A stretch of 33,431 nt of DNA from a virus: the IMG/VR virus record IMGVR_UViG_3300025889_000496, positions 1 through 33,431 of that record. One strand, 5' to 3'. Below, piece after piece: positions 4,548 through 33,114 of the stretch. The translations under genes were made by a program, and so were the position numbers. The notes under the pieces were generated by a model. That model saw only the letters and a list, made by a program, of their open reading frames with translations, did not search any database and was not told where the DNA came from. Position 1 is the stretch's first letter. Every line of letters starts with the position of its first letter.

Positions 4548-4875
4548 TTTCGCTGAATGATTCTAAAAATTTTTCCCTCAATTCAAGTGTTAATTCTTGT
4601 TCTACTTTAAATTTTTCAATAGAGACGATGTATAAATAGTTTTTAATTATAAAAAGATCGCTCTCTTCAATTTTGTTTGATGCAAATGAGTCTGTAAATA
4701 CATCTGGAAATGCCTCTATAGTATCTTTAGCAATATCAATCAGGTTTGGTATTATCTTTGACTTTAGATATTTTTTATACTCATCAAGGGTAAAGTATTG
4801 TACTATTTGATCATATATATAAAGACAGTGCGTTTTTGTGGAAACAAATTGCTCTTCGTCTAAGAAACAAATCAT
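4528..4875 (-). CDS. Hypothetical protein (115 aa)
   Basis: A 115-residue acidic protein, mostly helical by eye (DEYKKYLKSKIIPNLIDIAK, VEQELTLELREKFLESFSEN), with no export signal. Its ATG overlaps the TGA of the GDP-mannose dehydratase gene (ATGA), so it is translated with it. No family is recognised; a link to the sugar pathway rests only on position. Confidence 0.75.
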   Translation of the reverse strand: MICFLDEEQFVSTKTHCLYIYDQIVQYFTLDEYKKYLKSKIIPNLIDIAKDTIEAFPDVFTDSFASNKIEESDLFIIKNYLYIVSIEKFKVEQELTLELREKFLESFSENERQRR

Positions 4876-5915
4876 AATTTTAATAAATTATAGTCGTTTT
4901 GATACATTTTGTCAACTAGTTTTTTGAAATCAGTTTTTCTTTTCCATCCAAGCTCTGATTCAGCTAAAAATGGGTTGCCGCAAAGCTTATGGACTTCAGC
5001 GGGGCGATAAAATTTTGGATTTATTTTTAATAAAATTTCTCCAGTATCTTTTTTAAAAACTTCATTTTCTGGTATTTCTGGGGTTTCGTTATACCAATCG
5101 CCTTTGATGCCCGCTGACTTAAAAGACTCTTCTACAAACTCCCGAATTGTATGCATCTCCCCACTAGCAAGCACGTAATTTTTTGGATTTTTTTGGTTTA
5201 GCATCAGCCAAACCCCTTCCATGAAATCTTCGGCATCGCTCCAATCTCTTTTTGCTTCAAGATTACCCAATTCAAAAACTGGAATCTTTTTGTTATGCTC
5301 TATAGCTAATTTAATTTTAGCAACAGAATTAGATATTTTTCTAGTAACAAAATCTAATCCCCTTCTTGTTCCTTCGTGATTAAATAGCCATCCTTGGACG
5401 GTATATAGACCATAAGACTCTTTATATACTCGTACAAGATGTCTAGCCGCACACTTGGCCGCTCCGTATGGAGATTGAGGTCTAAGTGGGTGATCTTCAT
5501 CTTGTGGAGAGTAAACGACATCACCAAATTCTTCTGAAGAACCAGCGTTATAGAAACGACAATTTGTGCAAAACCTTCTTATTGATTCTAATATATGTAA
5601 AACAGAATCTGCATCAGTATTCCATGTTTGAATTGGATATTTCCAACTACCCGCAACAAAAGATTGTGCTGCGAAATTTATAAAATAATCTGGTTTTATG
5701 TCTATAATGACGTCTCTAATACTATGAGCGTCATTTAAATCCATATCGATTAAATTGAATCTTGTGTTATTTTCAAGATGCAATATATTCTCGTGATTTT
5801 TAACACTTAACCTACGAGCCGTACCATATATTTCACACTGAGTATTCTTAAGAAGGTAGTCAACCATGTGACTACCATCTTGGCCAGTAATTCCAGTTAC
5901 TATAATTTTTTTCAT
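4872..5915 (-). CDS. gmd: GDP-mannose 4,6-dehydratase
   Basis: A 347-residue short-chain dehydrogenase of the usual length for this enzyme. It has the NADP-binding motif GITGQDGS at the N-terminus, the SSEEFG segment, the catalytic Tyr and Lys in SPYGAAK, and the FNHEGTRRG segment typical of GMD. It converts GDP-D-mannose to GDP-4-keto-6-deoxymannose, the precursor of GDP-fucose, GDP-rhamnose or perosamine sugars. No reductase or epimerase for the next step is seen here, so the host or another phage region must supply it. Its ATG coincides with the predicted transcription start. It likely works with the glycosyltransferases at 10.5-13 kb. Confidence 0.95.
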   Translation of the reverse strand: MKKIIVTGITGQDGSHMVDYLLKNTQCEIYGTARRLSVKNHENILHLENNTRFNLIDMDLNDAHSIRDVIIDIKPDYFINFAAQSFVAGSWKYPIQTWNTDADSVLHILESIRRFCTNCRFYNAGSSEEFGDVVYSPQDEDHPLRPQSPYGAAKCAARHLVRVYKESYGLYTVQGWLFNHEGTRRGLDFVTRKISNSVAKIKLAIEHNKKIPVFELGNLEAKRDWSDAEDFMEGVWLMLNQKNPKNYVLASGEMHTIREFVEESFKSAGIKGDWYNETPEIPENEVFKKDTGEILLKINPKFYRPAEVHKLCGNPFLAESELGWKRKTDFKKLVDKMYQNDYNLLKL

Positions 5916-10280: not shown

Positions 10281-10496
10281 TTAATCTAAAGATTTTCTTT
10301 CTAAATCCTGTATTCTTTTTAATAAAAAATCTAATTTTGAGCGTATTTTATTATGTGTGTCTCTGAGTTCAGAAGTAAGCAATTCAATTTGCTCTTCTAG
10401 CGCAATAATTTTATCGTCATACTTTTTACAGTATTGCTGTTGAATGTCGCAGCAATTTTCTCTTAAGTATTTTGAAACACTAGACCATCCGCTCAT
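10281..10496 (-). CDS. Coiled-coil protein (71 aa)
   Basis: A 71-residue protein whose last 45 residues form a heptad-rich coiled coil (DKIIALEEQIELLTSELRD and on). Two Cys pairs (ENCC, QQYC) lie before it. It overlaps the upstream glycosyltransferase gene by 17 bases. Function unknown. Confidence 0.7.
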   Translation of the reverse strand: MSGWSSVSKYLRENCCDIQQQYCKKYDDKIIALEEQIELLTSELRDTHNKIRSKLDFLLKRIQDLERKSLD

Positions 10497-11406
10497 TTTT
10501 ATATATTTCTTTTTCTAATTTTTCGATTTTTTTGTGCAAAAGCATAATTTCTGTATTTATATGGTATGATGTAATAGGATGATAATTGAGGCTTTGGACA
10601 GAACTTTTTGATAAATTTTTATTTTTTATCTCTTTTGTTTTATCCATAATGGGATCAAGAGGCTCTAGGCTTAGTTTGTTTTTAGAAACATCTTTATAAA
10701 CTATATTATGCAATAAATCCTGCTGTTGATCATATTGCCTGTGATAAGTAATGCATTGCAGTATATTTTCTGGCAAATGATTATACTTTTTATAACCTTC
10801 TGGGTAAAATAAGTGAGGATATGAGAGCTGCTCAATGTTAATTTGATTGCCGAGCCAACCAAGTTTTGTATCTGCGCCTGATGCAGTTGGATAACCTTTT
10901 TCATGCTTTGGGGGGATCTGCCTAGGCAAGCAAAGCCAATTAAACCAATTTTCTTTTTTAGCGCTTTTTATCATTTTCTCTGCAACATGCATAGGAAGTA
11001 ATGTCCCTCCTCCGCCAGAGAGATATTTTATCTGGCTTCCGTTATATGGGTAATTACCAGTCATGTCTTTACCATACATCTTATCTTCTTTTACGTCAAG
11101 CAATTCAATAAAAGAATTAAGATTAATTAAATTAACATAAGTATCATCGTCAGCTATAAAAAGCCACTCGCAATCACTTTTTTCATTAATAATGAATTCC
11201 ATCCCTTTGAATATTTTAGGAGGGCAACTGTGACAATCATTATATTGAGTGACTACTTCATGCTTAATATTTTTACCCAACTCGCCGTCAGTGCTAATGA
11301 GGTAGTTATTGCACTGACTTAACCAAGTGCGACAGATAGGTTTAATTCTAGATTGTGCGAATTTAGATCCACCTAAAATCAAAAAGTAAATATTATCTAT
11401 TTTCAT
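10480..11406 (-). CDS. Fringe-like (GT31-type) glycosyltransferase
   Basis: A 308-residue protein resembling the Fringe/beta-3-galactosyltransferase group. It has FLILGGSKFAQSRIKPICRTW at the N-terminus, the metal-binding FIADDDTYV, the SGGGGTLL segment and a later GADTKLGWLG. It would move a sugar from a nucleotide sugar to a glycan or protein. The start at 11406 (MKIDNIYFLILGG) was chosen because it begins at the first core strand and overlaps the upstream gene by only 14 bases. A C-terminal helical tail (HKKIEKLEKEIYKNE) is outside the usual domain. Fringe-type enzymes are better known in eukaryotes. Acceptor unknown. Confidence 0.75.
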   Translation of the reverse strand: MKIDNIYFLILGGSKFAQSRIKPICRTWLSQCNNYLISTDGELGKNIKHEVVTQYNDCHSCPPKIFKGMEFIINEKSDCEWLFIADDDTYVNLINLNSFIELLDVKEDKMYGKDMTGNYPYNGSQIKYLSGGGGTLLPMHVAEKMIKSAKKENWFNWLCLPRQIPPKHEKGYPTASGADTKLGWLGNQINIEQLSYPHLFYPEGYKKYNHLPENILQCITYHRQYDQQQDLLHNIVYKDVSKNKLSLEPLDPIMDKTKEIKNKNLSKSSVQSLNYHPITSYHINTEIMLLHKKIEKLEKEIYKNERMV

Positions 11407-12274
11407 CAAGTATTTTTTTTCCGTGAAAAGCGCAATCAAATGAATATTCATCGCATTCATAGGAATCGCTTATTGGTTTTCTGTTTTTATATTTTTTTGC
11501 AGCAAAAGAAAATTTGCTAAAAAATTCTTCCGTATGCCAACAGTGTATTGTATAATAATCTCTAGAATCATTTTTTGAAGTAGAGAAGTAATCAAACTTA
11601 TCTGTTTTTTTAATTTTTAATCCACTAGAATTAATAGCTACATGTCCAGCGTACAAAAGTATTACTCCAGCATACCATCTTGGCCATTTGCCTTCGTGCT
11701 TATCAAACTCATTTTTTAAAAAATAATTTACATAATCTAAGGTTCTTGCTCCTTGTCTTATCATATTTTCTGTAGTAGAAAACCAAGTCGAGCCAATATT
11801 TGGGATGTTTTGATCTGGCAAGCTCAAGTTTTGCATAATCAAAGGAAGTTTTTTTCTTGCGAATTCACTTGAGTAAGCAGCTACGCCAGTAAAAATCTCA
11901 TCTTCTTTAATTTCTACTTCTAAGATCCCTTCGCACAAAAATGTATCAACATCTAATCTTAGGCAGTATTTATAATTCAATAAATGATCCATGCATTTAC
12001 TGTCTACAAATGGGGCAAACGAATCTGTATATCCATATTGATTGCCAGAATAAGCATATCTGAAATGATCACTTTTAGAAAGTTCATCCAGTTCTATAAA
12101 TATACAATGATCTTTAGGGATAAGTTTTTTTATGGAGAGTGGGCCGCATACCAAGAAATCAAACTTTTCATAAAGTTTTGTTTTATGCGCTACGCTGTAA
12201 TACAATCCGTAAAACTGCTCAAGGTAATTGCCTTTATGTGGTATATAAACAACTATAACAGAGTCTTTTTTCAT
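11393..12274 (-). CDS. GT-A-like glycosyltransferase
   Basis: A 293-residue protein with a GT-A-like layout: a beta-alpha N-terminus (SVIVVYIPHKG), a DxD-type motif in YCLRLDVDTFL, and a downstream WPRWYAGVILLYAGH segment with a late His (YTIHCWHTEEF). DxD motifs bind the metal and nucleotide sugar. Related proteins in phages are mostly uncharacterised. It is the second of three glycosyltransferase genes in a row, starting 18 bases after the previous one. Donor and acceptor cannot be told. Confidence 0.65.
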   Translation of the reverse strand: MKKDSVIVVYIPHKGNYLEQFYGLYYSVAHKTKLYEKFDFLVCGPLSIKKLIPKDHCIFIELDELSKSDHFRYAYSGNQYGYTDSFAPFVDSKCMDHLLNYKYCLRLDVDTFLCEGILEVEIKEDEIFTGVAAYSSEFARKKLPLIMQNLSLPDQNIPNIGSTWFSTTENMIRQGARTLDYVNYFLKNEFDKHEGKWPRWYAGVILLYAGHVAINSSGLKIKKTDKFDYFSTSKNDSRDYYTIHCWHTEEFFSKFSFAAKKYKNRKPISDSYECDEYSFDCAFHGKKILDENR

Positions 12275-12291
12275 ATTTACTATACAATATG

Positions 12292-13065
12292 TTATTGAAA
12301 ATTTTGAGAAACTCCACTATGGCCTTTACCAATTTGACCTAAATGTATAACTGGAACTGGTTCTGGCAAAACCGACATAGCGCTTCTTTCAACAAAAAAA
12401 TGCCTAAACTGAGAATCACTTCCGCCAGCTGTAGGAAAACAAGGATGAATCATTCCTGTTTCTTTTAATACAGGAGAGTAATCTTTTTTGCTTTTAATTA
12501 GCGGGGCGATTAATTCATTAAATTCATCTTGATTTATTTTTATTTTTATTTTTTTTATTTCTTCGATAATTTTGCTTTGTAAATGAAACATTTGAAAAAA
12601 TCCTACTCCTAGTTCTTTGTTATCCAAACGAACCATAGAGTTAATATCCAATAACTCTGGGCTATAAGCAACTTTACGGGTAAAATCCAAAAATTCTTTT
12701 CTAGATTCAATAATTAATCTACGTGTGCAATAAAGATTGTTTTTGTCTAATTTTGTATTCTTAAATATTCCATAAAAAGGAGTGGGGAAAACGATATCGC
12801 AATCTGTTAAAACAACCCATTCTTGGTATTTTAAGTTTTTAAAACCTTCGTTAATTGATCTACCTTTATCAAAGCTTGCTCCATTTTTATAAAATAAATC
12901 CGTCTCTACGCAGCAGACATCATTTTCTCCGCAGATTTTTTGGGTTTCATAATCTGTTGGAGTTGTAATAACGATTATATTGTTGAATTTATCTTTATTA
13001 ATAGGTAGTGTTTCTTTTAAAAAAGAAGACCTACCTACACAGGTCATTATGGCTTCTACTTTCAT
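12292..13065 (-). CDS. GT2-like glycosyltransferase
   Basis: A 257-residue glycosyltransferase-like protein. The N-terminus (VEAIMTCVGRSSFLKETLP) and VLTDCDIVFP, with its DxD, fit a GT-A fold of the GT2 kind. TAGGSDSQFRHFF and HLGQIGKGHSG near the C-terminus look like acceptor-loop motifs. It probably acts in the cytoplasm with the next two transferases. GDP-mannose dehydratase at 4.9-5.9 kb may make its donor, but that link is inference. Confidence 0.7.
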   Translation of the reverse strand: MKVEAIMTCVGRSSFLKETLPINKDKFNNIIVITTPTDYETQKICGENDVCCVETDLFYKNGASFDKGRSINEGFKNLKYQEWVVLTDCDIVFPTPFYGIFKNTKLDKNNLYCTRRLIIESRKEFLDFTRKVAYSPELLDINSMVRLDNKELGVGFFQMFHLQSKIIEEIKKIKIKINQDEFNELIAPLIKSKKDYSPVLKETGMIHPCFPTAGGSDSQFRHFFVERSAMSVLPEPVPVIHLGQIGKGHSGVSQNFQ

Positions 13066-15801: not shown

Positions 15802-18234
15802 TTAGGGCTTTATTATTTTTTTTACCACAATATTATTATTTTTGACAGAAATTTCAAAATCTTTGTCCTCGGACAATAGCAGGGGAGCTAATTGTTTTTC
15901 TATATTGTCTTCAATTAATCTTTTGATTGGCCTAGCGCCATCTTTTTCTTTGATGGATTGATCTGTTAATATGGATAATGCTTTAGCTGTGATCTTTAAT
16001 TTTATCCCAGAATTTAAAAGGTTGTTTTTTAAATTATCTAATTCAATTTTTAATATATTTTTTATTTCATCTTTGTTAAAATTCTTAAATACAAGAATAT
16101 CATCTAATCTATTGATAAGCTCTGGTTTAAAAAATTTAGAAACTTCCTTCATTACCATAGAGGTGGTGTCTGTTTCTGATTCTAAGAACCCCATGTTTTT
16201 TGGAGCTTTAATTGCGTTTGCTCCAATGTTTCCAGTTAAAATGATAATTGAATTAGAAAAGCTTGCCTCCCTGCCAAAATTATCAGTTAACTTTCCTTCT
16301 TCTAATATTTGAAGTAAGATGTCAAAAACAGCAGGATCTGCTTTTTCAATTTCATCAAACAAAACAACTGAATATGGATTTTTTCTAACTTTTTCTGTTA
16401 ATTGGCCACCTTCTTCATATCCAATATAACCTGGGGATGCTCCAACCATTCTATTTGTGCTAATTTTATCCGAGTATTCGGACATATCTAATTGTATTAA
16501 CTTATTTTCACTACCAAAAAATTCTTTAGCTAGAGTCTTTGCGAGAAAAGTTTTTCCAACTCCACTTGTCCCTAGGCACAAGAATGCCCCAAATGGTTTG
16601 TTTTTTTTCTTTAAAGGGGTATGTCCCCTCAGTAGACAATTATAAATTTTATCTACAGCCTCTTGTTGTCCTACGACAATTTTATTTAATCTTTTGTTTA
16701 AAGCAGAAAATCTTTTTAAGGAAGTATTATATAAGGATTCTATTGGTATTTTTGCTTTTTCTGAGACAGCCTCATATAAATACAACTCATCAACTAATGT
16801 TTCGGAAGAGGTTTTTTGACTCATCCATTCTTGCAAAACATTTTGATATGTTTGAAACAGTTCGTTCTGCTTCTCTTTTATTAGTTTATTATTGGGGTCA
16901 TGATCTTCTTGGATCATAAGGTCCTCTAGCTGTGCCTCTAGGTCTTTAGCTTTATCTGGTCTTTGAAAGTTTTTAATTTTAGCTTTTGCTCCAGACTTAT
17001 CTAGTAAATCTATAGCTTTATCTGGAAAGCTTTTGTCAGTTATGTATTTATCTGCAAAATGAACACAGAGTTCTAAGAAATGATCTGTATATAATACTCC
17101 GTGAAAACTTTCATAATTTGACTTGATTCCTTTTAGTATTTCTAAAGATTCCTCTTTTGAGGGTTGAGCAACTTTAATAGATTGAAACCTACGATCTAAA
17201 GCTCCGTCTTTTCCGATTGTTTTTTTATGTTCCTCATGAGTAGTTGCACCAATACACGTAAGTTCTCCACGAGCAAGTGCAGGTTTTAACATATTCGCCG
17301 CATCCATTGTACCTTCTCCGCTGCCTGCACCAACTAATGTATGGATTTCGTCAATAAATAAAATAACATCTTCAGACGAGGAGGCTTCTTTAATTATTTT
17401 TTTCAATCTTTCTTCGAATTGTCCACGATATTTTGTGCCAGCAATAAGCATTGCTAAATCTAATCCATAAATCTGTTTATTTAACAAATGCTCTGGAGCT
17501 AATCCTTTGACAATTTGCGAGGCCAAACCTTCAATTATGGCGGTTTTCCCAACTCCTGGATCACCAATTAGAATAGGATTATTTTTTTTCTTCTGACATA
17601 AGATTTCGCAGATTTGTTTAACTTCAGCATCCCTACCAATAATATTATCTATTTTTTTTTGAATTACCAATTCATTGAAGTTAATAGCGAACCTAGATAA
17701 ATATTCTAATTTATTAACATTCTGTTCGAAATTTTCATCAATATTATTGATTTGTGGCTCTGGCGTGAATGTTAAAGGCTCACTTAACTCTAGAAAGTCT
17801 TTTTTTATTGCAGCCAAAATCGTATGAGGATCTATCTGCATTTCACGACAATAGCCATTAATTGGCGAGTTGCTGTATTGAGAAAAAGCTAAAAACAAAT
17901 GTTCTAAACCTAAATAATCATGATCATATTTATTTGCAATTGCATGAGCGATTTCAATTACCCTGTTTGCGTCTATAGAAAATGTAAATTTTTCAGAATT
18001 TTGCTGGGGGAAATTTTTATTCAAATCAATTAAGGTTAATACATAGGATTCTATAGCTTCAATATCTATTTTAGACCTGACTAAAATATCGAAAATTTCA
18101 TCTGTTTTAGTAGCTAAAATACCATAGCAAAGATAATTAATGTCTATAACATATGTTTCATTTTCTTCTGCTGCTTCTCTAGCTATTTGTATGGCTTCTA
18201 TGGCTTTAGGGGTAAAATTTGGTAGTTTTTTCAT
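15802..18234 (-). CDS. ClpC/ClpA-like AAA+ unfoldase
   Basis: An 810-residue Hsp100 protein, full length. Residues 1-150 are a Clp N domain. D1 has Walker A GDPGVGKT (224-231) and Walker B FIDE (293-296). A short middle region (about 425-475) is closer to ClpC than to the long ClpB one. D2 has GTSGVGKT (555-562), LFDE (625-628) and GARPIKR. MGF at 681-683 sits where ClpA/ClpC carry the [ILVM]-G-[FL] loop that docks on ClpP; ClpB lacks it. It should unfold proteins and feed them to a ClpP protease, presumably the host's, as none is seen here. Its ATG overlaps the polymerase stop (TAATG), so it is made with the replisome. Confidence 0.92.
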
Positions 18235-20816
18235 TATTTTATATCACCAAGCTTCATGTATATTTGTTCGCTAACAATAGATATGTTATCAATAAATAAT
18301 ATTTCATCACCTTTTCTCGCTGAGAAAATCACTATACTTTCTTTTTTAGGGATGGTATTTGTTTTTAAGAAATCATCAACTCTATTTCGCTGTACCAATC
18401 GCCCGTTGGCCATTGAGCGACCATTTAAAAGAATTCCATCTACAGTAGCCGTTTCATCTGAAAATGTAAATTTAATATAATCATTTCCATTTTGACTTTT
18501 TCTTTTGAACGCATCTTCAACTACTCCAATGAATGTGGAACTATCTCTTTCCTCCATGCTTTTGCTATATAGTAAATCATTTACTCCAGAATCTCTAAAA
18601 ACTTCTTTGAGTTTGTGTGTATAGCTGTAGCCTAATAATTTCTTTTCAAAATACCAATTAGCAAATTTTTCATGCTGTTTGTTTTGAATATATATTTTTT
18701 TATAATTTTCATACTTTTTCTTAAAAGTTAAAAATCTTTTTTCAGACATTAATATTTTCCCGTCATCAGCTAATGTTTGATCTCTTTGCGTTTCTGCAAT
18801 ACAGTCTAATAGTTGATAGTTTTTTCTTTCGCCCATTGCTATAAAATTGCGCTTTTCTCTATCAGTTAAAATATTAAAAGCCTGAGCTTCTAATACCAAC
18901 AGAGAGCGGCTACCGCTTGAGCAAGAAGACATAGCTCCAGCTTGAATAAGAGCAGAAAGCATTCCTATGTTTAACCCCGCACTTTTGGCTGTAAGAAAGA
19001 TATCATACTTGTTAGATCTTGTTGAATCCCTAAAGTCTTTTAAGTTTTCTAAAGATTTCTCACTTATGCCCTTAATACTATTTAATCCATATCTAATACA
19101 ATTTCCTTCTATTGTAAAATCCATATTAGACTTAATAAGATCTGGAGGCAAAAGTTTAATATTAAAATGAGGAAGTTCTTGTGCTATTTTACATATTTCT
19201 TCATAAGGTGATGGTTCAAATTTTGTCATCTTTAATAAAGATTGAAAAAACTGAATAGGATATTTGAATTTTAAATATGTAGTCCACGCAGCAAGCTTTG
19301 CATAAGATATTGAATGGCTTTTGTTAAAGGAATAATTCGCACTATCTTCAGCAACCTTCCATAGAATTGAACCCACTTCGTGCGGCAAGTTATTTTCAAT
19401 CACTTTTTGTTCAATTTTGTTTTTCCATTTAGGCATTTCTTCTGTCTTTTTCTTGCCAACAATTCTTCTAAGTTGCTCTGCTTCATCAAGATTAAAGCCA
19501 ATCTTAACTGCCATTTTCATTAATTGTTCTTGGTATAATGGTATGCCTCCAGTATAAGAGAGAATATCATCAAAAAAATCATGAACAGTTTGAGATTCTC
19601 CAGTATCAGCAAATTTTGCGAAACTGTCCATAAAATCTAATGCTCCTGGCCTACCGATAGCGACTACAGCACTTAACCTTTCGAGACTGTTTGGTTTGAT
19701 TTTTTTACAAACCTTAAAATTAGTATCGGCCTCTATTTGGAACAAACCATGAGGGCAATTTAGGTCTTGCTGAAGTGGCTTAAAGATGTCTTCATCATCA
19801 ACAGAAATAGAATCTATGTTTAAGTCTAGGGATTTACAAACATCATGAATTACGCTAAGGGTTCTTAATCCTAAAATATCAAACTTAACCATCAACTCAG
19901 AAACCCAGTTCATATCATAGCCACTTACTAAGTTTCTGTCATTGGTGCTTTGTAATGGACAAATTTCTTCTAATTTTTGAAAAGAAATAGCTATTCCAGA
20001 GGGATGAACGCCAGTATTTTTATTTAGACCTTCAAGTTTTTCCGCAATATTTAAAATATTTTTATTTTGTTTAGACCATTCTTGAAATTTTTCACTTTCT
20101 TCCTGTGCTTCGCTCAACTTGGAGACTTTGCCAAATTTTTCAGGTATATAATTACTAACAATATTAACATCCTGTTCTGAGTAATTGCCTACAATTTTCC
20201 CGCACTCCTTAATGCATAATTTACTCTTTAAAGTATTTAATGTTAAGATATTACAAGTCCTACCTGGGTACCTTTGTTCAATAAACTTTACTACTTCTTG
20301 TCTTCTTTCATAAGAAATATCATTATCAATATCAGCTAGTAGCGATCCATCTAGATAAGTCACTCCATCCTTCCCCTTTATCTTTTTGGCTCGACTTTTG
20401 CTAACAAACCTTTCAAAATATAAATCATATTTAACTGGATCAACATTTGTGACGCCAATTAAATATAGAACTAAACAGCCAGCAGCAGAGCCTCTTCCTG
20501 GACCAGTGGGTATATTTTGTTCTTTACAAAAATTGTGAACGTCCCAGTTTAAGAGAATATAATCGACAAAACCAAGATCTTCTAAAATATCTAATTCTTC
20601 TTTTGTTCTTTTGTAATAAACTTCATTGTTTTTAAATTTATTTATGCCTTTTTCTTTTATTCCCTCCCAGCAAAGTTTTTTGAGAAAAGTAAAGTTGGAA
20701 ATTTCTTCTTTTATGTTTAATTTTTTATAAAACCTATCTTCAATTTTTATTTCTGGGAGCTTTACTCCTGCAGGGCAAGCGTCCTCGTAGTCTCCAAAGT
20801 CTTTAAAAAAATTCAT
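18234..20816 (-). CDS. dnaE: DNA polymerase III alpha core, lacking PHP domain
   Basis: An 860-residue DnaE-type polymerase. The palm begins near the N-terminus: GPGRGSAAG at 105-113, DIDND (catalytic Asp pair at 162-166) and KFDILGLRT with the third Asp at 313. Finger motifs follow (IGRPGALDF, PLYQEQLMKMA, FNKSHSISYA). A helix-hairpin-helix-like part (LNSIKGISEKSLENL) and an OB-fold near the C-terminus (FIGVVEDAFKRKSQNGNDYI) come next. The usual N-terminal PHP domain is missing; a PHP-like protein is coded separately at 21942-22673. The start at 20816 overlaps the exonuclease TGA (ATGA). It replicates the phage genome. Confidence 0.93.
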   Translation of the reverse strand: MNFFKDFGDYEDACPAGVKLPEIKIEDRFYKKLNIKEEISNFTFLKKLCWEGIKEKGINKFKNNEVYYKRTKEELDILEDLGFVDYILLNWDVHNFCKEQNIPTGPGRGSAAGCLVLYLIGVTNVDPVKYDLYFERFVSKSRAKKIKGKDGVTYLDGSLLADIDNDISYERRQEVVKFIEQRYPGRTCNILTLNTLKSKLCIKECGKIVGNYSEQDVNIVSNYIPEKFGKVSKLSEAQEESEKFQEWSKQNKNILNIAEKLEGLNKNTGVHPSGIAISFQKLEEICPLQSTNDRNLVSGYDMNWVSELMVKFDILGLRTLSVIHDVCKSLDLNIDSISVDDEDIFKPLQQDLNCPHGLFQIEADTNFKVCKKIKPNSLERLSAVVAIGRPGALDFMDSFAKFADTGESQTVHDFFDDILSYTGGIPLYQEQLMKMAVKIGFNLDEAEQLRRIVGKKKTEEMPKWKNKIEQKVIENNLPHEVGSILWKVAEDSANYSFNKSHSISYAKLAAWTTYLKFKYPIQFFQSLLKMTKFEPSPYEEICKIAQELPHFNIKLLPPDLIKSNMDFTIEGNCIRYGLNSIKGISEKSLENLKDFRDSTRSNKYDIFLTAKSAGLNIGMLSALIQAGAMSSCSSGSRSLLVLEAQAFNILTDREKRNFIAMGERKNYQLLDCIAETQRDQTLADDGKILMSEKRFLTFKKKYENYKKIYIQNKQHEKFANWYFEKKLLGYSYTHKLKEVFRDSGVNDLLYSKSMEERDSSTFIGVVEDAFKRKSQNGNDYIKFTFSDETATVDGILLNGRSMANGRLVQRNRVDDFLKTNTIPKKESIVIFSARKGDEILFIDNISIVSEQIYMKLGDIK

Positions 20817-21451
20817 AATTCTAATTCCCATATTTGGCGGCGAAAAATTTCATAGTTCATTTTGACATCGTAAATCGCATCATGTAGTTTTGATTGGTCG
20901 AAATCAATACCATATGACTTGCATAACGCAGTGATACTTGCCTTCATTCCTTTTTCCTTAAATGAAGTAAGCTTAAACTGCCAAGATAAAAGTTTTTCTT
21001 TTGAAGGTTTAATATCTTTTTTGATTGCTTTTGCAATACATAACGTATCTACTAGGTTTTTTAAATAGGAATAATCAGGCTTTTTCCCTAACGCTTTACG
21101 AAAAATGGAGTGAATATAAACGTCAAAACCTAATAAATTATGTCCAACTTTAATATAATTGGGGTCGTATAGATATTGCTCCATAAAATCTAATACTTTT
21201 TCTGGCTCAATAGATTCTTGTTCATATTTTTTTCTATTAAAACCTGTAATTTTTGCAGCATCTGCAGAAATGTTAAGTTTGTCCCATTTGATTAAAAAAT
21301 TAAACTCTTTGAGTGTTTTCGCTCCCTCGCAAAGTATAAAGCCTAATTGCCAGGGCTTGTTGTTTTTGTCGCACAAATTAAGGTTACATGTCTCAAAATC
21401 AAAAACCATATATTTTTGTTTGTTTTTAAATCTTAGTAGTTCTTCCTTCAT
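20813..21451 (-). CDS. DnaQ-like 3'-5' exonuclease (DEDDh)
   Basis: A 212-residue proofreading-type exonuclease. The Exo I motif is MVFDFETCNL (Asp and Glu), Exo II is VGHNLLGFDVYIH, and Exo III is LHDAIYDV with the catalytic His and Asp. It removes mismatched 3' ends and is expected to partner the polymerase coded next, with which it overlaps by ATGA. A longer frame begins at 21487, but that would place the promoter inside the gene. I chose the ATG at 21451, one base from the predicted transcription start. Confidence 0.9.
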   Translation of the reverse strand: MKEELLRFKNKQKYMVFDFETCNLNLCDKNNKPWQLGFILCEGAKTLKEFNFLIKWDKLNISADAAKITGFNRKKYEQESIEPEKVLDFMEQYLYDPNYIKVGHNLLGFDVYIHSIFRKALGKKPDYSYLKNLVDTLCIAKAIKKDIKPSKEKLLSWQFKLTSFKEKGMKASITALCKSYGIDFDQSKLHDAIYDVKMNYEIFRRQIWELEL

Positions 21452-29248: not shown

Positions 29249-29664
29249 TGGTGGAGGCGAGCAGAGTCGAACTGCTGTCCTAATCATCTTCAATCTTGCG
29301 ACTCTACAAGCTTAGTTAATTTTTTTTATAGTTTAGATATTAACATCCAACTTCTTGTTTCATTTATTTTACAGTTTTATGACACAAGCAAACTTTTTTC
29401 TGTTTTTGCAGATGTCATCCTCTTCTAATTTTATCTGCGTCCAAAAAGAAAAGGGGTAGCTTATGCTACAGCAGCCACTTGATGCGCGACACTCTTGCGA
29501 GTGACAACCTTGCGAGAAGCAACCTTCTTTGCAGGGTTAAAACGATCAAGAAGACCATTTATAAGTTTAGACTTGGCACTTATATACCACGGGCTTTTTG
29601 AGGAGCCAGCCCACTCCTGCTTGCTACGCAAGTATCCAATATTAGTCGAATCCAATACGCCCCC
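29249..29664 (-). ncRNA. ssrA: tmRNA (transfer-messenger RNA)
   Basis: A full one-piece tmRNA of 416 bases. The ends pair as a 7-bp acceptor stem, GGGGGCG with CGCCTCC, including the G3-U70 pair that marks alanine tRNAs. The 3' CCA is encoded. The T arm is AGCAG-TTCGACT-CTGCT. P2 pairs CTTGCG with CGCAAG and CAAGC with GCTTG. PK1 has AGGAG with CTCCT and GGGCT with AGCCC. The tag frame probably resumes at GCC, 29577, 13 bases after PK1, and ends at TAA (29463-29461) in the loop of GTAGC-ATAA-GCTAC. The tag would be 38 residues, beginning AKSKLINGLL and ending KSVAHQVAAVA. Further pseudoknots are visible (GCAGAT/ATCTGC, ATGACA/TGTCAT, GTTAAT/ATTAAC). It rescues stalled ribosomes with SmpB. Confidence 0.97.
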
Positions 29665-29688: not shown

Positions 29689-29717
29689 ACTTTACACTAT
29701 ATGGGAATTAATGTCAA
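29689..29717 (-). promoter_or_regulatory. Promoter of the tmRNA
   Basis: TTGACA (29712-29717), 17 bp, TAAAGT (29689-29694). Predicted start about 29682, which leaves an 18-base 5' leader to be removed by RNase P. The -10 is weak. Confidence 0.6.
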
Positions 29718-29720
29718 GTA

Positions 29721-29942
29721 TTAAAATTTTTTTATTTTGTTTTCAATGCTAGAGACAATTTTTCGAAATTTAGATTCTCTAGCAGATTTATTTTCTCTCG
29801 TTCTATGACTATTAAGAATTATCCTTCGATAATTTTGCTTAATTAAATTTTTGGTTTTTGTATAATTTCTATTTATTTTAAAAAGTGCTGCTTGGATTTT
29901 TGAAGTTTCTCTAATAATTTCAGACTCTAACTCTTCTTTAAT
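29721..29942 (-). other. -1 frame continuation of the coiled-coil membrane protein
   Basis: A 73-residue open stretch with no start codon, in the -1 frame relative to the gene at 29927-31525. It reads IKEELESEIIRETSKIQAAL at its start and ends KIVSSIENKIKKF, basic and helical, with normal codon use. It joins the upstream frame at a run of nine A residues (29942-29950) that contains the slippery heptamer A AAA AAA. An in-frame stop lies just before the run in this frame, so it must be reached by frameshift, by an unusual ATT start, or the run length is wrong. Confidence 0.6.
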
Positions 29943-31525
29943 TTTTTTTTATCACCATTATAAAAATTAATAATACCTTGTAGTTCTTCTTTTGTTGGAA
30001 TATCTTTAGCTTCTGGCATGTTATTTAATGCAGACTCAATCCTGTCAAATCTTTCAATAGAAACAAAGTCTTTGTGTTTTTCTAGATTGGTGACTTTATT
30101 TTTCAATTCGTTTATTGTTTTTGTAAAAGCGTCTAAATTGAAATTTTTAAAATTTTCATCTATAATCGGGTTTTTATTTTTTAAAGAACGCTTATGCAGT
30201 CCAGAAACTCCTGCTAAGACAAGCAAAACAGCTAATGGATCAAAAACAAAAATTAATATAATTATTACAATCCTTACGGCTTTGTCTAGGGAAATCTCAC
30301 CTCCTCCTAAGTCTTCAAACAATTTTGCTATATATTTAATTGGTCCGATTTCAGCTTCTAAGCTACGAACTTTTTCATTGTAATCCATTTTTTGAACCTG
30401 TAATTCGCTAATCCTGTCATTCGCTTCGTTAATTAATTTATTGTATTTTTCAACTTCTGATTTATCTTCAACTGACTCTAGTCTTGATTGCTGAAGTGTG
30501 GTAATTTTATCAACTGATTTTTTAATTTGTTCTTCTGCTTTTTCCCTGTACGAATTTATTTTAAATTCAATATCTTTTAAATTTTGAGATATAAATTCTC
30601 TTTCTTCTAATTGAGATTTTTTTAAATCTTCTGATTTTTGATTAATGCTGCTTTTGTATTCTTGAATCTCAGAAGAAGCATCTTTTCTGTAAGAATCTAT
30701 TTTAATTTCAATTTCTTTTAGGTTTTTATCTATAGATTCTCTTTCTTCTGCCTGCGCCAGTTTTAATTCTTCTATTTTGCTTTTCTTGTCGGAAAAAATT
30801 CCTCCAGATTTAGATTCTATTTCAGCGATTGCTAAATCTAGCTCTTGTCTTCTCTCTATAAGCCTGTCTCTTCTTGATTCTTCAAATTTTATATCTTGAT
30901 TTAACTGGTTATTTATTTGATCTATGGTTGTTTGATTAGAAGATAATGATATTTCTGTCTCAAAATTAGAGATAATTTTATCTAATTCTTTTCTACGATT
31001 AATAAGTTTGTCGATCTGAGCTTTTTCAAACTCGATGTTTTGGTTTAATTGAGAATTAATTTGTTCAATTCTTTTTTCTTCTCTTTCTATATCAATTAAA
31101 TTTATATCCCTAGAGGATGAGGATTTTTTTTCTTCTTCATTAATGTAAGAATATTGTCTTTCAATAAAAAGCTGTTCTCTTGAGATTTTCTCATCTATTT
31201 GTTTAACGGTGGCAGTTTCTTTTTCTGTTAAGTAGCTATGCTCAATGTGAGCCTTAGATAGAAAACCAAAAATACCCATGCTAGTAATAAACATTAATAT
31301 TATTACTGCGCTAGTTAAATACATTTTCATTAGCTTGTTGGCGCTTTTCCAGTTAATATGGAGCCATACAGCAGAAATAATTTTGCCAAACTCTAAAACA
31401 GAACCCATGATTATGACTGGCAGGACAGAACCAGGAAACATTGTAGCCAGTCCTAGGATACTAAAATATGCCCCAGTGACAGATATACTTAGAGCCGAGA
31501 GTAGGACTAAAAAAGAAAAAATCAT
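29927..31525 (-). CDS. Large membrane protein with coiled-coil domain (532 aa)
   Basis: Residues 1-95 carry about three membrane spans (FLVLLSALSISVTGAYFSIL, PVIIMGSVLEFG, AVIILMFITSMGIFGFL). Residues about 95-400 are a long coiled coil with repeats such as QLNQNIEFEKAQIDKL and QLNQDIKFEESRRDRL. Another span follows (VRIVIIILIFVFDPLAVLLV), then a cytoplasmic tail. Similar proteins of unknown function occur in marine T4-like phages. The frame ends at an A9 run, beyond which the -1 frame stays open for 73 residues. The gene starts two bases after the previous stop. Confidence 0.8.
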   Translation of the reverse strand: MIFSFLVLLSALSISVTGAYFSILGLATMFPGSVLPVIIMGSVLEFGKIISAVWLHINWKSANKLMKMYLTSAVIILMFITSMGIFGFLSKAHIEHSYLTEKETATVKQIDEKISREQLFIERQYSYINEEEKKSSSSRDINLIDIEREEKRIEQINSQLNQNIEFEKAQIDKLINRRKELDKIISNFETEISLSSNQTTIDQINNQLNQDIKFEESRRDRLIERRQELDLAIAEIESKSGGIFSDKKSKIEELKLAQAEERESIDKNLKEIEIKIDSYRKDASSEIQEYKSSINQKSEDLKKSQLEEREFISQNLKDIEFKINSYREKAEEQIKKSVDKITTLQQSRLESVEDKSEVEKYNKLINEANDRISELQVQKMDYNEKVRSLEAEIGPIKYIAKLFEDLGGGEISLDKAVRIVIIILIFVFDPLAVLLVLAGVSGLHKRSLKNKNPIIDENFKNFNLDAFTKTINELKNKVTNLEKHKDFVSIERFDRIESALNNMPEAKDIPTKEELQGIINFYNGDKKKLKKS

Positions 31526-32185: not shown

Positions 32186-32401
32186 TCAAATGTTATTATT
32201 AATCATATTTATTATTTTTTGCGGGAAGAGGGATTTTACTTTGTTTTCTACTTTAATTGAAATAGAAGGGTCTCTCTTTGAGCCAGCAACCAAATGTGTA
32301 TATTTTACTTGATCTGGAGCATTATAAATACATTTTGCATTTTTGGGATCAATTTCATTGCATATAATATATCCTGGAGGTGGCTTTAAAAGTGGAGTGA
32401 T
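32186..32401 (-). pseudogene. -1 frame C-terminus of the glycosyltransferase-like protein
   Basis: A 71-residue open stretch with no start codon, reading ITPLLKPPPGYIICNEIDPK at its start and then YTHLVAGSKRD and VENKVKSLFP. The YTHL...GSK segment looks like the normal C-terminus of the protein coded at 32386-33114. It joins that frame at seven A residues (32401-32407), A AAA AAA in phase with a -1 slip. So the gene is either frameshifted in fact, reached by ribosomal slippage, or broken by a base-count error. Confidence 0.7.
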
Positions 32402-33114
32402 TTTTTTGTTTTGTTAAATGCCATTTGAGAAAATATCCACTGCTCAAATATAGCATTAAAAGAATCTCCTAAATCATGTTTGTTTAAATATTCTTTATTT
32501 TTTTTAATTGATAATATATCTAATACATTTTTTGCGTACTTTTGAATAAACGTGACATCATTCCCGCCAAATACACCAAAATTAGGGGTTAATATTGGAT
32601 TTTGATGATTTTTTTTACGCTTAAATAAGTAACAAAGCTTCTTGAATAGAAATAAATTTTTAAATATAGAAGATCTTAGTGGAGAATTTAAAATTCTTTT
32701 AAAGCAAAAGTTATACATTTGCATTTTATATTCTATACTTTGACAAACTAATTCCTGTTCTAGGAATTTTATTTTTGGCTTTTCCCATAAAAAAACATCA
32801 TTATCTATATGCAAAAAAGGATCTTCTTGTAAAGAATATGTGATAATTTTGGGGTACGCCCATAATGAGCGTGGAATATTTTGTGTATTGAGGACCTCTA
32901 TGTCTGTATAGACTTCATCAATCAATTGACGAAAAGGTTCAATGTCACGAAGACCATTTTTATCTGTGTATAAAATTACTTTAGGAAAAAATGATCTAGC
33001 ACAAAATAGTGCTAGACCAAAAGAATAAAAGAAGTCTTTCTTATTATTGAAACCACAATAGCGATTTAAATATACGGTATTTGACCAGTGTGTAAAAACC
33101 GCTTTATTAATCAT
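32386..33114 (-). CDS. Glycosyltransferase-like protein (ends early by frameshift)
   Basis: A 242-residue protein with GT-A-like features: a start reading KAVFTHWSNTVYLNRYCGF, a DxD motif in FLHIDNDVFLW, PNFGVFGGND, and FEQWIFSQ. It is related to bacterial and phage proteins thought to be glycosyltransferases. In the zero frame it stops after FNKTKKSLHF; a slip by -1 at the A7 run gives about 309 residues with a fitting C-terminus. It overlaps the NrdB stop (TAATG). Whether the short or long form is made is unknown. Confidence 0.7.
   Translation of the reverse strand: MINKAVFTHWSNTVYLNRYCGFNNKKDFFYSFGLALFCARSFFPKVILYTDKNGLRDIEPFRQLIDEVYTDIEVLNTQNIPRSLWAYPKIITYSLQEDPFLHIDNDVFLWEKPKIKFLEQELVCQSIEYKMQMYNFCFKRILNSPLRSSIFKNLFLFKKLCYLFKRKKNHQNPILTPNFGVFGGNDVTFIQKYAKNVLDILSIKKNKEYLNKHDLGDSFNAIFEQWIFSQMAFNKTKKSLHF

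Follow-up and report, generated by a model that had tools for sequence, protein, structure and literature searches.

A phage tmRNA with a 38-residue basic tag, and the recurrent company of phage tmRNAs and ClpC-like unfoldase genes

A one-piece tmRNA gene in a phage genome

The window, meaning the whole stretch of DNA that was analysed, is an entire virus record of 33,431 bases. It carries a gene for a tmRNA with the following parts and surroundings.

29249-29664, minus strand: one-piece tmRNA (ssrA) with encoded CCA (Rfam RF00023, 114.6 bits; same ends by ARAGORN)
29658-29664, minus strand: 5′ strand of the acceptor stem, GGGGGCG, pairing with 29253-29259 and including G3-U70 (read from the sequence)
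29253-29259, minus strand: 3′ strand of the acceptor stem, CGCCTCC, followed by the discriminator A and CCA (29252-29249; read from the sequence)
29260-29276, minus strand: T arm, AGCAG-TTCGACT-CTGCT (read from the sequence; compensatory changes across the family)
29591-29618, minus strand: pseudoknot PK1, upstream of the resume codon (pseudoknot search by script)
29464-29577, minus strand: tag reading frame of 38 codons, AKSKLINGLLDRFNPAKKVASRKVVTRKSVAHQVAAVA, with resume codon GCC at 29577-29575 (frame kept in L044)
29490-29503, minus strand: hairpin CACTC-GCAA-GAGTG within the tag frame (read from the sequence)
29461-29463, minus strand: tag stop codon TAA (read from the sequence)
29456-29469, minus strand: P5-like hairpin GTAGC-ATAA-GCTAC with the stop codon in its loop (sequence and stem-loop listing; identical in L044)
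29689-29717, minus strand: sigma-70-like promoter match TTGACA-17-TAAAGT upstream of the tmRNA, 10 of 12 (motif scan)
29927-31525, minus strand: membrane/coiled-coil gene just upstream of the tmRNA (ORF list)

The RF00023 model covers the gene end to end (model positions 1-374, 114.6 bits against a gathering score of 47, E = 2.5e-44). The initial annotation had placed a complete tmRNA at 29249-29664 and had proposed a covariance-model search over the acceptor and pseudoknots as its check. The full-length match and the identical ARAGORN ends bear this out, and the parts that it named (G3-U70, CCA, T arm, PK1 and stop-codon hairpin) can all be read in the window sequence. ARAGORN and Rfam found no second tRNA or tmRNA in the 33,431 bases. 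PK1 (stems AGGAGT/GCTCCT and GGGCT/AGCCC, by the script search), a resume codon and a tag frame with its stop codon are all present, as in other tmRNAs. The window RNA has the alanine identity element G3-U70 and a CCA end; its relative in L044, a separate 71.6-kb contig, ends in AACA, not ACCA. The acceptor G-U was present in all 10 aligned members of the family described below. RNAalifold on 10 family members gave 81 pairs; in 31 of these, one or more sequences carry a compensatory change. The hairpin claimed within the tag is there at 29503-29490, and in L044 it still pairs, with an A-U to G-C double change and with U-G in place of C-G at its base (by eye).

Five sigma-70-like matches were counted on both strands of a 701-base region, against 2.4 expected. 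Upstream of 10 family members the best fits matched 8-11 of 12 positions, as raw best fits with no shuffle control. In the relatives L089, L026, L123, L098, L016, L039, L066 and L097, a leader like GTTCTTTGAAAA or GTTCTTTAA, which we take to resemble boxA antitermination signals, directly precedes the tmRNA. This leader is less clear in the window phage and L044.

A 43,263-base IMG/VR contig, L002, has a tmRNA of the same length and with the same tag, and its neighbouring proteins are 99-100% identical to those of the window. The window encodes UvsX/RecA-like, DnaB, DnaE and RNR proteins and an endonuclease; no structural genes were identified in it. These phage replication genes, in an IMG/VR record, agree with the description of the tmRNA as phage-encoded. 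The locus is an authentic phage tmRNA, a variant of a known RNA type with a 38-residue basic tag.

The N-terminus of the protein at 29927-31525 is similar to Pelagibacter phage Mosig, and an ORF similar to this gene adjoins the tmRNA of L044 (by eye). A tandem-repeat protein with units like AVKQNGYALEYVKEQTPEICLE lies at 2-993. GDP-mannose dehydratase-like and several glycosyltransferase-like ORFs (by eye) and a DUF6734 protein (Pfam) lie at 4872-5915, 10480-13065 and 32386-33114.

The tag, its relatives and its length

ARAGORN starts the tag at GGT (gene position 109, 29556), which gives 31 residues. The GCC at gene position 88 (29577), proposed earlier as the resume codon of a 38-residue tag, is 13 nt past PK1, against 34 nt for GGT. 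Both codons have T at -5 and A at -4, so the choice between them rests on spacing and conservation. One-piece tag starts called by ARAGORN lie mostly at positions 77-97, with exceptions at 163 in L006 and L026. L044 encodes a tag of equal length, AKSKLVNGLLDRFNPSKRVATRKVVARKSVARQLTAVA, and of the seven codons that ARAGORN omits, five are identical in the window and L044, one differs synonymously and one changes Ile to Val. We rejected the 31-residue tag on the PK1 spacing and the keeping of these upstream codons, and retained the 38-residue tag, which is basic, as had been claimed, and ends in VAAVA.

The window and L044 tags differ by 6, 2 and 15 substitutions at codon positions 1, 2 and 3. 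Fifteen are synonymous and 8 nonsynonymous (pN/pS 0.19), and none of 5000 random placements of the substitutions gave so few nonsynonymous changes. Mycobacteriophage DS6A carries little more than a tRNA-like domain, and a comparable molecule is a potent inhibitor of tmRNA (available portion of PMC4131195), so that the RNA might be imagined as a decoy titrating SmpB or competing with host tmRNA, with no tagging. With the mRNA-like domain intact and its frame under purifying selection, we regard a decoy as highly improbable.

Viral relatives were collected by a scan of IMG/VR with the tmRNA 5′ pattern (at least 120 stretches, loci up to L123, a non-random sample) and by a family motif scan (68 stretches). 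The latter, with the window, gave 69 family entries, 26 of which yielded a tag with our own tag caller. In the other 43 no 5′ end was found by regular expression; since ARAGORN finds a tmRNA in 23 of these, the family extends beyond the 26 entries used. Compared without its tag, the scaffold groups the window with L044, L089, L026, L123, L098, L016, L039, L066 and L097, at identities of 0.67-0.85 (185 sequences compared).

The family tags fall into three classes. The AVA type has 38 residues and a net charge of +8 or +9. LALAA-like tags have 19-36 residues as called and net charges from -1 to +12; the 36-residue tag, in L123, would alternatively have 31 residues from GGC. Acidic tags have 34-41 residues and net charges down to -11. 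Similar scaffolds thus carry tags from +12 to -11; L089 (+11) and L026 (-10) share 83% of their scaffold. Within classes, pN/pS was 0.13-0.35 for six 31-residue basic tags (15 pairs), 0 to 0.91 for 20-residue tags (10 pairs), and 0-0.58 for acidic 34-residue tags (6 pairs, in which few changes exist). On a scaffold tree of 24 sequences the acidic tags need 2 gains, against a shuffle mean of 5.4, and L026 is apart from the other acidic members. The support of the deciding nodes was 17-72%. We therefore make no claim of an exchange of tag classes or on how tags moved, and state only that very different tags occur on similar scaffolds. Further long acidic tags, of 24-34 residues, occur in the viral tmRNAs of L090, L107, L115, L032, L103 and L489; the first five are outside the window's family by scaffold, and L489 was not in that comparison.

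The spread of charge within one scaffold family, and the conservation inside classes expected of a specific interaction, would fit a tag that is not mainly a degron, its charged stretch targeting fragments to nucleic acid, a membrane, an adaptor or some other fate. However, the final residue is A in each of the 26 called family tags (AVA, MVA, MAA or LAA), which is degron-like. The window and L044 tags had no amphipathic signal beyond shuffles (P = 0.21 and 0.28), and an amphipathic helix was rejected as a feature of either; among ten tags tested, P was below 0.05 only in L016 and three Patescibacteria tags. We consider such targeting unlikely. Two functions suggested in the initial annotation, redirection of tagged proteins and a stable tail, gained no positive evidence, and the tag ends in the small hydrophobic VAAVA.

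Our own tag caller mis-frames some bacterial controls when compared with ARAGORN (e.g., L133, L135, L146 and L182), so ARAGORN was used for the whole length baseline, in all three sets. In bacterial controls (at least 119 loci with the same 5′ pattern) the median one-piece tag was 10 residues, and 1 of 99 had 18 or more; this lone tag has an end unlike the usual degron and may be false. In the viral pattern loci (at least 120) the median was 13 residues, with 18 or more in 13 of 41 one-piece genes. In 70 Patescibacteria loci the median was 20 residues and 31 of 59 tags had 18 or more, a share that may be inflated because score decided the choice of the first 50 loci and, in part, length that of the last 20. 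Of 145 genomes searched in the phylum (its name was inferred) of the Gracilibacteria MAG that carries L142, 127 had a match, and the 70 loci come from 70 of these. Patescibacteria tmRNAs (L250-L319 and L142) often have basic, alanine-rich tags of 20-37 residues ending in AVA or AFA. The L142 tmRNA, which ARAGORN misses, has a 37-residue basic tag and, as in the window, TAAGT before the resume codon. Long basic tags have, therefore, a bacterial precedent, being common in the sampled Patescibacteria. The earlier description of the tag as unusually long is right in comparison with most of the bacteria sampled, though not in general, since tags of 19-41 residues recur in related phage tmRNAs.

These long tags with AVA/AFA ends, and L142 above all, might suggest that the tmRNA and its tag were acquired from a Patescibacteria host. 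Only the scaffold comparison bears on the host, and it did not place the window closest to Patescibacteria among the 185 sequences: the ten best identities outside the tag (0.60-0.85) were all viral, with no bacterial sequence among them. We regard this origin as quite doubtful.

ClpC-like unfoldase genes and phage tmRNAs

Two further genes of the window are relevant to the tag.

15802-18234, minus strand: ClpC-like double-AAA+ unfoldase of 810 aa with the ClpP-docking loop MGF (phrog_4871, E = 4.1e-223)
18234-20831, minus strand: DnaE-type DNA polymerase, adjoining the unfoldase gene on its upstream side (Pfam)

Among solved structures, the best match of the unfoldase was ClpC/MecB (573 bits). 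Walker A and B motifs in both AAA+ modules, a GYxG pore loop and a hydrophobic-G-F loop were found in all 18 proteins extracted, the window's included (20 tried; 17 distinct, since two are identical). A full-length phrog_4871 match was present in 11 of 50 one-piece tmRNA records: ten family records, and L047, whose tmRNA is unrelated and has the short tag GETLAIAA. The window phage is counted among the ten via L002, whose match is divided between two frames; the window copy is intact. The other 39 records, including the long-tag L032, L034, L103 and L107 (fragments), had no full-length Clp. Within the family, 19 of 25 records had the full-length unfoldase (10 of 10 first found, 9 of 15 later). 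The family unfoldases share 36-73% identity; those of L044 and L355 are identical, and those of the window and L044 share 57%.

ClpP-like proteins were found in 2 of the 25 family records, L044 and L355, and no ClpP was found in the window phage's 43-kb contig. The L044 protein (PF00574, 231 aa) has a long stretch ahead of its ClpP domain, and its Ser and His motifs line up with those of ClpP of known structure. ClpP-like proteins can also be prohead proteases, and this one may instead have a role in capsid maturation. Three of the 50 tmRNA records encode SmpB (L078, L095 and L102), each with a short tag of the standard type.

The tmRNA of the window is upstream of the clp gene, 11 kb away. 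Among 19 family records, 6 have the tmRNA downstream of clp at less than 3 kb, with a gap of only some 45-60 bp in L123 and L097, and in the other 13 the distance is 4.7-33 kb. Both genes share a strand in 18 of the 19 records, all except L016.

For a second scan of IMG/VR, six Clp proteins of phages (five family members and that of L047) were aligned as the query, and the best 80 of 493 Clp relatives were kept. Forty-five of these records were at least 40 kb long, and 43 were searched, L413 and L431 being left out as already counted. A tmRNA over the Rfam cut-off was found in 27 of the 43 and was absent from the other 16. Part of PMC9004378 gives a background for phage tmRNAs of 402 in 18,146 genomes, stated as 2.3%, in another collection that is not size-matched; this figure fits the earlier remark that phage tmRNAs are known but rare. 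In 21 of the 27 records the tmRNA followed clp on the same strand at a distance of 0-5 kb, where uniform placement expects 0.9; the 5-kb limit was chosen after the distances had been seen, and L415, at 5.1 kb, was left out. Because the 43 records are relatives of one another, these counts are not independent events; some of the records belong to the window's family, and at least three (L408, L411 and L418) were also hit by the family motif scan.

The close arrangement depended on the Clp lineage. When the clp match started near the N-terminus (up to residue 82), the tmRNA was 0-5 kb downstream in 3 of 9 records. In a second lineage, which was absent from the query and whose match starts at residue 162 or later (24 records in total), it was close in 18 of 18. 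Two proteins of this lineage that were read whole have 682 and 685 aa. Seventeen of its 18 tmRNAs have tags of 21-22 residues of one family, e.g., GNVLNKMALLGLVKQDELVEVA, by a pattern fitted to them. Close pairs of these tags mostly had pN below pS, with two exceptions, and the overall ratios were 0.56 and 0.46, suggesting a constraint with weaker support than in the window's family. Intervening genes in this lineage can be on the opposite strand; thus we speak of a neighbourhood, not of an operon.

ARAGORN called 2 of the 18 tmRNAs that Rfam found at the second-lineage loci (L490-L510), one of them truncated, and its call in L366 was also truncated. In the viral record L329 (G019:36700-43000), clpS, clpA, NUDIX and queC-like ORFs and a tmRNA with the tag GETLAIAA stand in a row, with ClpP elsewhere in the record; clpS, NUDIX and queC were named by eye.

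Possible reading of the tag and comparison with known systems

We lean towards a reading in which phage trans-translation feeds a Clp-type protease, with the phage ClpC-like unfoldase as the probable dedicated reader of the tag. The phage would make its own tmRNA, as the promoter-like match suggests, and a host enzyme would charge it with alanine via G3-U70. SmpB would presumably come from the host, since none was found in the window phage's 43-kb contig, itself a fragment. The tmRNA would enter ribosomes stalled on broken mRNA and resume at the GCC at 29577; alanine and the 38-residue basic tag would be added and the ribosome released. The tagged fragment would go to a Clp-type protease and be degraded, with the VAAVA end as degron and the long basic stretch as a conserved segment for binding or engagement. 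The phage unfoldase would dock to ClpP through its MGF loop and may recognise the tag. This last step is the weakest: a phage unfoldase is possibly the reader. The earlier suggestion that the tag might suit a phage protease thus receives indirect support, from a ClpC-like unfoldase in the same genome.

Alternatively, the tmRNA could back up host rescue late in infection, with host ClpXP or ClpAP reading the degron and the unfoldase present through lineage synteny. Clp and tag classes do not covary: the charge of the unfoldase N-domain was not correlated with tag charge (17 proteins, rho -0.06, p 0.81), so that we rejected charge co-evolution, and the Clp group of L089, L016, L350, L364 and L352 mixes tags of +11, +2 and -9/-11. 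The 11 kb between the genes in the window, the separation of more than 3 kb in 13 of 19 family records, the 16 of 43 Clp records without a tmRNA, the 39 of 50 one-piece tmRNA records without a full-length Clp and the finding of ClpP in 2 of 25 family records point away from phage-unfoldase reading, most basic relatives end in the canonical LALAA, and the phage clp adjoins dnaE (DnaE-like ORFs are directly upstream of clp in six related phages too, by eye on ORF maps) and might be a core gene in its own right. Three observations speak against host back-up: the tmRNA follows clp in 21 of 27 records, which come from two Clp lineages and include 18 of the second; L329 has the clpS-clpA-tmRNA row; and the constraint spans the full tag, beyond its end. 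The L044 ClpP-like protein also counts for reading by the phage unfoldase. Host back-up is possible, and we give it clearly less credence than reading by the phage unfoldase.

A more general proposal is offered tentatively: many large phages may carry a tag-and-unfold module, in which a lineage-specific long-tag tmRNA is combined with a ClpC-like unfoldase that reads the tag and feeds host or phage ClpP. Changing the tag on a kept scaffold would send stalled products into the phage's own degradation channel, apart from the host LAA degron. The RNA anatomy, the frame and its coding constraint, the unfoldase with its motifs, and the clustering of tmRNA and clp in many viral records are observed. 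The recurrent neighbourhood suggests a protein quality-control channel that phages may operate for themselves. We know of no settled answer to why phages carry tmRNAs.

The new result, and the one of greater interest, is that phage tmRNAs and the ClpC-like unfoldases of phages repeatedly occur together. The window's family includes tags of three to four times the common length, with constraint throughout, that are strongly basic or strongly acidic on similar scaffolds. ARAGORN shortens or misses many such tags, and tag lists built with it may therefore under-report them. Neither the window tmRNA (blastn) nor its tag (tblastn) had a match in 50,697 phage records with the low-complexity filter on; from the L097 tmRNA, only a 46-base piece of the 3′ end matched. 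The available portions of PMC4131195, PMC9004378 and PMC7162821 say nothing of long charged tags, or of clp next to phage tmRNAs. Neither long Patescibacteria tags nor a phage clp-tmRNA module was found in the titles and abstract openings among the matches listed, mostly outside subscription journals and preprints.

According to the parts of these papers covered, tmRNAs are known in the mycobacteriophages Bxz1, Cali, Wildcat and others and in Bacillus phage G (PMC4131195), in Melnitz and Pelagibacter phage Mosig (PMC9004378), and in huge phages, with SmpB also found in phages (PMC7162821). The Melnitz tmRNA is two-piece, whereas that of the window is one-piece. The window tmRNA shares with one-piece bacterial ssrA (RF00023) the tRNA-like domain, G3-U70, PK1, tag frame, stop hairpin and CCA. 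It differs in its 38-residue basic tag, against an ARAGORN median of 10 residues (99 controls among the matches listed). Patescibacteria tmRNAs resemble it in their long, mostly basic tags, many with AVA or AFA ends, and several in TAAGT before the resume codon, but they are chromosomal and their scaffolds are not among its closest. The phage unfoldases have the two AAA+ modules, pore loop and ClpP-docking tripeptide of ClpC/ClpA (ClpC/MecB, 3j3s), and differ from them in being phage-encoded and in their divergent N-domain.
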